From positions 2,278,581 to 2,342,580 of the forward strand of contig NZ_CP041345.1 of NCBI RefSeq assembly GCF_013265555.1: a stretch of 64,000 nt of DNA, read 5' to 3'. The notes below the pieces were generated by a model. It searched no databases. It was not told where the DNA came from and was given only the letters and a program-made list of their open reading frames with translations. This DNA comes from Tenuifilum thalassicum. GTDB taxonomy: Bacteria; Bacteroidota; Bacteroidia; Bacteroidales; Tenuifilaceae. Positions 1,201-52,081 of the stretch are shown here, piece by piece. Made by a program: the position numbers and the translations under genes. Numbering within the stretch: position 1 is the first letter of the stretch; each line of letters starts with the position of its first letter.

Positions 1201-1278
1201 ATGACACAACTTTTAAACACCAATCCTAACAATAATTTCAACAATAACTTGTTGAAATGGGAAGGTTTTGGTGTTTAG
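1201..1278 (+). CDS. Asparagine-rich leader peptide 1 (asnA attenuator)
   Basis: A 25-codon ORF, 8 of whose codons are Asn: positions 6, 8, 10-12 and 14-16. It ends at a TAG 25 nt before a perfect terminator stem and lies upstream of asparagine synthetase. Such a run of the cognate amino acid is the hallmark of ribosome-mediated attenuation. Stalling on Asn codons would leave 1259-1269 free to pair with 1304-1314 and block the terminator. An AAGGAA sequence lies about 14 nt before the ATG. Not a functional protein; no database support could be checked. Confidence 0.8.
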   Translation: MTQLLNTNPNNNFNNNLLKWEGFGV

Positions 1279-1303: not shown

Positions 1304-1337
1304 AAAGCCTTCCTCAACACAGGAAGGCTTTTTTTAT
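1304..1337 (+). terminator. Attenuator terminator 1 upstream of asnA
   Basis: The arms AAAGCCTTCCT (1304-1314) and AGGAAGGCTTT (1321-1331) are a perfect 11-bp stem followed by a T run. The 5' arm can alternatively pair with GGGAAGGTTTT at 1259-1269 inside leader ORF 1 (11 pairs including two G-U), forming a mutually exclusive antiterminator. Confidence 0.85.
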
Positions 1338-1347
1338 TGATACAATT

Positions 1348-1464
1348 ATGAAAAGGCACTTGAACAATAATAACAATAATCGTCCTCCACCCGTCGGGAA
1401 TGGAATGTGTGCATATTGTTCAAAACCCTTCCCGACAAACGGCGAAGGGATTTTTTTTTACTAA
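1348..1464 (+). CDS. Asparagine-rich leader peptide 2 (asnA attenuator)
   Basis: The ATG at 1348 opens a 38-codon frame with six consecutive Asn codons (positions 6-11, bases 1363-1380), followed by Arg and three Pro codons. It lies between terminator 1 and asnA. The base run GTCGGGAA at 1393-1400, just after the Pro codons, can pair with TTCCCGAC at 1429-1436 and so disrupt terminator 2. The stop (1462-1464) falls beyond terminator 2, unlike classic leaders. The Asn block makes a regulatory role likely; the exact functional 3' end is uncertain. Confidence 0.7.
   Translation: MKRHLNNNNNNRPPPVGNGMCAYCSKPFPTNGEGIFFY
1426..1459 (+). terminator. Attenuator terminator 2 upstream of asnA
   Basis: The stem CCCTTC-CCG / CGG-C-GAAGGG (one bulge) carries a 5-nt loop and is followed by ATTTTTTTTT. 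It ends 25 nt before the asnA start, and its 5' arm overlaps the predicted antiterminator partner 1429-1436. Confidence 0.8.
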
Positions 1465-1484: not shown

Positions 1485-2492
1485 ATGAAACTACAAAACT
1501 TTGAAACAATTACAGGAAGCATAAACAGAACGATTGAAACGGAAAAGGCAATAACATTAATTAAGGATACTTTTCCAAAACTACTGGCAGAAAAGCTAAA
1601 CCTTCTTAGGGTAACAGCACCGCTAATAGTTGAATCGCAAACAGGAATTAACGACGATTTAAATGGAGTAGAAAAACCTGTAACCTTCACCTCCCAAGCC
1701 ATTGGTAAACATATAGAAATTGTTCAATCGTTAGCCAAATGGAAACGTTTGGCCCTACATAAATTAAAAATGCAACCAGGCCAGGGCATTTATACTGATA
1801 TGAACGCCCTTAGACCCGATGAAATTCCAGATGCTACACACTCTATATATGTTGACCAATGGGACTGGGAAAAATTTATAGATAGTTCGGATAGAACTGT
1901 CGAGTATTTTCGTAAAACAGTTAATTTAATTTACGCTGCCATTAAAGAAATGGAAATGATAGTTGCAACACAAACCAGAGCAATTACACCAGAGCTGCCA
2001 CAAACCATTCATTTCATTCATACGGCAGAACTAGAAGAGATGTACCCTAGCCTCACGGCAAAAGAACGGGAGCAAAGAATCTGCCAACAATATGGTGCTG
2101 TATGCATTGAGGGAATAGGCTATCCCCTTTCAGACGGTAAGCCAACAGATGGAAGAGCACCCGACTATGATGATTGGTCTACCCTACGACCCGATGGTTA
2201 CAGGGGCTTAAATGGCGACATAATAGTTTGGCACAAACCTTTAGGCATTGCTCTGGAACTCTCATCGATGGGGATTAGAGTGAGCAGAGAGTCATTAATG
2301 ACCCAGCTAAAATTGCAGAATCTTGAAAGCAGAATCAAATACCCATACCATAGCATGCTTATTAACAACATTCTTCCTCAAACAATTGGAGGTGGTATTG
2401 GACAATCGCGACTCTGCATGTACCTGCTGCGAAAGGTGCACATTGCTCAGGTACAAGAATCGGTATGGCCCGATGAAATAGAAACCAATTAG
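1485..2492 (+). CDS. asnA: Aspartate-ammonia ligase (asparagine synthetase A)
   Basis: AsnA makes asparagine from aspartate, ammonia and ATP in the cytoplasm. The 335-residue product matches the length of the E. coli enzyme. It shows the family blocks HSLAKWKR-like (QSLAKWKRLAL), ALRPDE, YVDQWDWE, RAPDYDDWST, GLNGDI.VW, ELSSMGIRV and the near C-terminal TIGGGIGQSR, typical of a class II aminoacyl-tRNA-synthetase-like fold. The frame extends upstream to a GTG at 1407, but that would run through terminator 2. The ATG at 1485 (MKLQNFETI) gives the normal N terminus. It sits behind two Asn-rich leader peptides, so asparagine-tRNA supply probably controls its transcription. A strong terminator follows. 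Confidence 0.95.
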   Translation: MKLQNFETITGSINRTIETEKAITLIKDTFPKLLAEKLNLLRVTAPLIVESQTGINDDLNGVEKPVTFTSQAIGKHIEIVQSLAKWKRLALHKLKMQPGQGIYTDMNALRPDEIPDATHSIYVDQWDWEKFIDSSDRTVEYFRKTVNLIYAAIKEMEMIVATQTRAITPELPQTIHFIHTAELEEMYPSLTAKEREQRICQQYGAVCIEGIGYPLSDGKPTDGRAPDYDDWSTLRPDGYRGLNGDIIVWHKPLGIALELSSMGIRVSRESLMTQLKLQNLESRIKYPYHSMLINNILPQTIGGGIGQSRLCMYLLRKVHIAQVQESVWPDEIETN

Positions 2493-51888: not shown

Positions 51889-51911
51889 GGAAAATTTGAG
51901 ATGTTGGAACT

Positions 51912-51984
51912 CTTTTTCCCTTCGCCGGCATTATCCGGATCAGGTTCAAAGGGTATGATCTCAGCCCTACGGGCACCCCCAAAG
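51912..51984 (-). ncRNA. TPP riboswitch aptamer (THI element)
   Basis: Read on the minus strand it contains the classic THI-box core: GGGGGTGCCC, GGGCTGAGATCATACCC, then TGAACCTGATCCGGATAATG and CCGGCGAAGGGA in order. It lies about 100 nt upstream of the TonB receptor start and senses thiamine pyrophosphate. Confidence 0.95.
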
Positions 51985-52081
51985 TCATTGCAAAACTAAA
52001 CAAATTATTTTAGTAAAAGTTTAAACCCCAGAAAACAATTTCAGAACAACAAGGGAACGAGGTGGAAATCAGCAAAAAACA

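Follow-up and report, generated by a model that had tools for sequence, protein, structure and literature searches.

Leader-peptide attenuators normally rely on a stop codon to fix the waiting place of a ribosome that has passed the sensor codons. The E. coli trp, his, phe, thr, ilv and leu attenuators contain a leader run of codons for the amino acid of the downstream gene, a mutually exclusive antiterminator and intrinsic terminator, and possibly a protector stem; the ribosome is parked at a plain stop codon downstream of the antiterminator arm. The last codons of E. coli pheL are Pro-stop, and those of hisL are Pro-Asp-stop.

Two leader ORFs on a single leader RNA have been described for Salmonella mgtCBR, where mgtM and mgtP read different signals (ATP and proline), mgtP contains three consecutive Pro codons, and slow reading of these sensor codons promotes expression (PMC3641672). 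In an engineered E. coli hisL reporter (hisL-RPPP-lux), Arg-Pro-Pro-Pro caused strong pausing in wild-type cells despite the presence of EF-P, similar to that at a stop codon, and TPPP was weak; the pause in this synthetic construct was placed to give read-through (PMC8129111). In a second synthetic arrangement, a Pro run ahead of the pyrL intrinsic terminator raised termination in efp mutants; in wild-type E. coli, where EF-P is present, PPPPPP ahead of pyrL reduced expression by less than 2-fold (PMC5021804). Leader attenuation, tandem leaders (mgtCBR) and RPPP as a stop equivalent are therefore known, the last from an engineered construct only in the literature searched. That literature contained no leader for Asn or asnA, Asn leaders in Bacteroidetes included, and only general mentions of leader peptides in Bacteroidetes. 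Nor did it describe any naturally occurring amino-acid attenuator that has a Pro brake and stands in series with a classical attenuator for that amino acid.

The window analysed here is a stretch of 64,000 nt from Tenuifilum thalassicum (NZ_CP041345.1). The region from the end of a small gene (885-1082) to asnA contains two serial Asn leader ORFs, each with its own intrinsic terminator (Table 1), with eight Asn codons in the first and six in the second. A profile search detected asnA as the sole Asn synthetase in the 3.2-Mb genome; the single PF00733 match reads as an MnmA-like protein. An EF-P gene is also present, with a lysine-type tip (KPGKGGAF). The leader had no match in Rfam at gathering thresholds. 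At that threshold, Rfam matched the window just once, at a TPP riboswitch (RF00059, 76.2 bits) on the minus strand (51899-51990).

Table 1. Features of the tandem leader region upstream of asnA (positions in the window)
Feature	Position	Strand	Basis or remark
Leader 1 ORF, translation MTQLLNTNPNNNFNNNLLKWEGFGV followed by a stop	1201-1278	+	Classical Asn leader; stop just past the arm, no Pro brake
Leader 1 antiterminator arm, GGGAAGGTTTTG	1259-1270	+	Pairs with 1303-1314
Terminator 1	1304-1335	+	11-bp stem plus T run
Leader 2 ORF, translation MKRHLNNNNNNRPPPVGNGMCAYCSKPFPTNGEGIFFY followed by a stop	1348-1464	+	Start, Asn run and Pro run kept in relatives
Start of Asn run, candidate protector stem	1360-1369	+	Pairs with 1414-1423 in free RNA
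Putative Asn sensor, six consecutive codons (AAC AAT AAT AAC AAT AAT)	1363-1380	+	Sequence
Proposed Pro-Pro-Pro brake (CCT CCA CCC)	1384-1392	+	Codon-type conservation; preceded by Arg (1381-1383)
Antiterminator arm of leader 2, GTCGGGAA	1393-1400	+	Folding, compensatory changes
Arm partner, TTCCCGAC, within 5' half of terminator 2	1429-1436	+	Folding, compensatory changes
Terminator 2	1426-1459	+	Stem 1426-1449 (CCCTTCCCG...CGGCGAAGGG), T-tract 1451-1459
asnA, aspartate-ammonia ligase, predicted regulated gene	1485-2492	+	PF03590, E 1.7e-96

Leader 2 starts with ATG (1348-1350), reads M KRHL NNNNNN RPPP and ends with TAA (1462-1464) 3' of terminator 2; its arm is the exact reverse complement (8 bp) of the arm partner. 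The ORF, its six Asn codons, Arg-Pro-Pro-Pro, this pairing and terminator 2 had all been claimed in a sequence-only reading, and each could be read directly. Both leaders are short ORFs rich in Asn codons ahead of asnA that recur in relatives, each followed by an intrinsic terminator before the structural gene and with a conserved antiterminator pairing exclusive with the terminator. In leader 1 the stop codon is placed so that a terminating ribosome would cover the antiterminator arm. The stop of leader 2 lies past its terminator, and Pro-Pro-Pro, with three consecutive Pro preceded by Arg as in known polyproline pause motifs, occupies the parking place; leader 2 is therefore best regarded as a variant that would work like the attenuator family. 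It appears to be an attenuator of the Trp/His type, in tandem and with a Pro brake.

We consider it probable (about three in four) that leader 2 is a translation-dependent transcription attenuator of asnA in which the ribosome is parked at Pro-Pro-Pro, serial with a classical Asn leader. From the sequence we infer that both leader ORFs are translated, that leader 2 senses Asn, that the ribosome pauses at Pro and that asnA is affected. A shortage of Asn-tRNA would stall the ribosome on the six Asn codons; with the last of these in the A site its leading edge would lie at about 1389-1392, leaving the arm free to pair with its partner and block terminator 2. With ample Asn-tRNA, the ribosome would be four codons further and slowed at Arg-Pro-Pro-Pro; once the second Pro occupied the P site, its leading edge would lie at about 1401-1404, so that the arm would be covered and terminator 2 would form before asnA. 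The prolines would thus park the ribosome as does the stop codon of leader 1 and of relatives (+4 after the last Asn). The ribosome covers 12-15 nt beyond the P site, a value cited in PMC3641672; with a leading edge of this size and these positions, the four-codon step would just span the arm. A brake would be needed because an unbraked ribosome running to 1462 would melt the terminator, as in pyrBI.

The predicted arrangement differs from that of the E. coli amino-acid leaders in that two leaders stand in series and in that leader 2 is parked by PPP (in some relatives Pro-stop), with the arm under the leading edge of the ribosome. Like mgtM/mgtP, it has two leader ORFs with a Pro triplet in the second, but Asn would be the signal for both leaders here, and the Pro triplet should favour termination rather than expression since the arm follows directly after PPP. 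With the hisL-RPPP-lux construct leader 2 shares Arg-Pro-Pro-Pro within an amino-acid leader, Arg being the residue found in the family of the window; the opposite sign of the effect in that reporter is explained by the position of the pause. With polyproline in pyrBI it shares a Pro pause ahead of an intrinsic terminator that would uncouple the ribosome and let the terminator form, but in pyrBI the effect was seen without EF-P and there was no antiterminator arm to cover. The small effect of PPPPPP in the presence of EF-P implies that strong braking may depend on Arg before the prolines or on weak activity of EF-P.

Upstream sequences of asnA were gathered from the family of the window, from genome contigs, and from the order and the class. 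Among 146 distinct sequences, 31 contained two Asn-rich leader ORFs, 24 contained one and 91 none, in a non-random sample picked by asnA similarity in which a few rows are near-copies. The asnA-proximal leader had Pro at most four codons after the last Asn in all 31 tandem loci, and the promoter-proximal leader only at one of them (L129), as one lone Pro. Single leaders were mostly of the first type, e.g. NNNLNNNSIRAGRLLL followed by a stop. Four loci of one family group (L118, L123, L126 and L133) contained only a Pro-ended leader, NNNNNNCPP, and no first leader was found upstream of it. The sequence-only reading had made absence of the Asn run plus PPP from orthologous loci its own refuting test; all asnA-bearing members of the family examined contained N(3-6)-R-PPP, except L008 (NNNTNNYP followed by a stop). 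More distant loci had, at the same place, either N7-R-PPP or an Asn run that a few codons separate from one or two Pro and a stop. At two loci (L006 and L014), the frame of leader 2 runs without a stop as far as the start of asnA or into it.

A search for N4-R-PPP (AAYx4-MGN-CCNx3) in 345 Bacteroidota genomes matched only one, that of the window. In 325 genomes of the class, N4-X-PP matched the window locus; the other matches were long ORFs or ORF fragments, and no further second leader of this kind was found among them. This rarity, together with the recurrence upstream of asnA in many relatives, indicates that the arrangement of leader 2 is not due to chance. The his leaders of the same family, located upstream of hisG (L165-L178 including L172; e.g. 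MKALGYTTLHHHHHSHHWRMADDHLV followed by a stop), have no Pro at their end and resemble classical attenuators that occur singly. These leaders and the N4-X-PP scan speak against a Pro ending as a general habit of Bacteroidota; the brake seems to be peculiar to the second Asn leader. The same recurrence bears on the reading in which ORF2 is not translated at all, terminator 2 being constitutive or controlled by a protein and the Asn run a product of chance or low complexity. The stretch before 1348 has no evident Shine-Dalgarno sequence, as that reading would predict, but an ATG is conserved a few codons 5' of the Asn run, conservation is of the codon type and the leader recurs specifically before asnA in many families, which makes an untranslated ORF2 extremely unlikely.

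The position of the Pro codons relative to the other elements fits the proposed brake, the arm of leader 2 starting directly after them. In 31/31 tandem loci the arm starts at -3 to +8 nt relative to the 3' end of the final Pro codon; L130 is without a convincing antiterminator arm. Measured from the same point in the 31 loci, the terminator starts at +21 to +39 nt and the stop of the leader lies anywhere from 0 to beyond +111 nt. The brake geometry of the sequence-only reading agrees with this placement and with the use of RPPP as a stand-in for a stop in the engineered hisL leader (PMC8129111). First leaders are built differently: their arm is mostly inside the 25 nt before their own stop codon and, in nearly all loci, the terminator starts 22-38 nt past that stop, which is the geometry predicted for classical stop parking.

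Comparison of leaders with and without an immediate stop points to Pro as a replacement for the stop codon. Four codons past the last Asn (+4), 15 of 16 PPP leaders have their third Pro, and 9 of 13 stop-ended ones have a stop preceded by Pro. Since third Pro and stop are both mostly found at +4, they look interchangeable at this position. At least three Pro (three or four) were present in 17 of 19 leaders without an immediate stop and in 0 of 12 with one, the latter all having one or two Pro (12/12); the association has a Fisher p of 6e-7, uncorrected for relatedness. The AsnA tree contains 4-6 independent stop/Pro pairs, 2-3 of which are in the expected direction and none against, which is not significant after phylogenetic correction. 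Three leaders (L123, L128 and L186) have PP only, without a stop. Relevant to the stop-ended relatives, slow termination after a C-terminal Pro is reported, and EF-P is said not to aid the release of peptides ending in Pro (discussion in PMC7246954).

This distribution also bears on two other interpretations of the Pro codons. They might be a second sensor, as in Salmonella mgtP, where runs of Pro codons sense proline (PMC3641672): a shortage of proline or tRNA-Pro would stall the ribosome, and the leader would read Asn as well as Pro. From the position of the Pro codons, termination would indeed be reinforced by Pro starvation. However, some lineages have a single Pro and a stop, there is no evident pathway reason for reading Pro at asnA, and the interchange of stop and Pro at +4 is explained by parking and not by sensing; we regard a second sensor as quite unlikely. 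Alternatively, leader 2 could be a classical leader with an incidental terminal Pro, parking at its stop, with lineages in which the stop is late relying on ribosome release or another route. A stop directly follows Pro in 13 loci, and leader 1 would park the ribosome at its own stop, both as expected from a classical leader. Against it, 19 loci have no stop directly after the Pro run (the nearest is 12 nt on), a fast ribosome would melt the terminator in the 10 loci where the stop lies beyond it, and Pro is found in every second leader (31/31) but in hardly any first leader. Incidental prolines are therefore very unlikely.

The sequence-only reading had noted the stop past terminator 2. Its location is true for the window, but as a design feature it is not borne out and looks incidental, as the late stop is not conserved: of 19 loci that have no immediate stop, 10 have the stop past the terminator, and its distance from PPP (12 to over 111 nt) is no greater than in the two other frames. 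Selection for a late stop was ruled out by this comparison of frames. The position past terminator 2 is best read as a constraint lost since the prolines would do the parking. The central proposal of the sequence-only reading is otherwise supported.

Whether the Pro codons are conserved as amino acids or as RNA can be judged from their variation. Across 13 family sequences, the codons for R-P-P-P were invariant at 8 of 8 first and second positions and at 0 of 4 third positions; the Asn codons show a like tendency with third-base variation, and past PPP the conservation becomes of the pairing type. The Pro codons were CCA (37), CCC (18), CCT (16) and CCG (5), always in the reading frame of the Asn codons. 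The bases at their third positions show no tuning towards pairing (-4.25 kcal/mol for the native codons, -4.68 kcal/mol as the mean of synonymous ones). Variation restricted to the third base, and synonymous codons that would pair no more weakly, indicate that Pro is kept as an amino acid. The opposite explanation would be a C-rich region 1 pairing with the G-rich arm (region 2), as in trp and without a translational brake. UCCACCC (1386-1392) can in fact pair with GGGAAUGGA (1396-1404) at -6.2 kcal/mol. This explanation is nevertheless unlikely, because it accounts neither for the constant frame nor for variation at third positions only, synonymous codons would pair equally or better, and loci with the arms AGGAAAGGAA (L131) and AGCAGGC (L117) keep Pro despite poor complementarity to the Pro codons. 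A role of the Pro codons as an RNA arm is thus unsupported by frame, third-position variation and in silico synonymous recoding.

Folding was in agreement with the proposed attenuation by Pro parking. The segment 1390-1438 folds as antiterminator (-18.0 kcal/mol; terminator 2 alone -13.7), and 1405-1460, in which the arm is hidden as it would be under the ribosome, folds into terminator 2. In the fold of the free whole leader, the Asn codons pair with 1414-1423 and the Pro codons with the arm, and terminator 2 is formed. One sequence thus gives three states, corresponding to free RNA, an Asn-stalled and a Pro-parked ribosome. The stem of 1360-1369 with 1414-1423 possibly sequesters the arm and favours termination when the ribosome is absent; protector pairing between the Asn codons and the spacer has a Fisher p of 1e-4 over families and is strong in the window and several distant families and weak in most close relatives. 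Complementarity of the arm exceeded that of shuffled sequences family-wise (Fisher p 7e-10). In the family alignment, the outer pair of the antiterminator stem varies between A-U, U-A, C-G and G-C and the second pair between C-G and U-A, with a covariation score of 0.165 versus 0.086 in shuffles (0/500 as high). The terminator stem is nearly invariant and so uninformative on covariation.

The asnA switch is predicted to be built of two serial attenuators, for which a steeper response, as proposed in the sequence-only reading, is plausible on arithmetic grounds. In this switch a pause caused by the nascent chain seems to set the waiting place of the ribosome, and stop-ended and Pro-ended versions of the leader occur naturally. 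That proline runs are natural, evolutionarily exchangeable stop substitutes in attenuators, making asnA dependent also on EF-P and prolyl-tRNA, we give an even chance. If true, polyproline stalling would have a positive regulatory use, and Pro pauses and the action of EF-P in Bacteroidota could readily be measured with this system.
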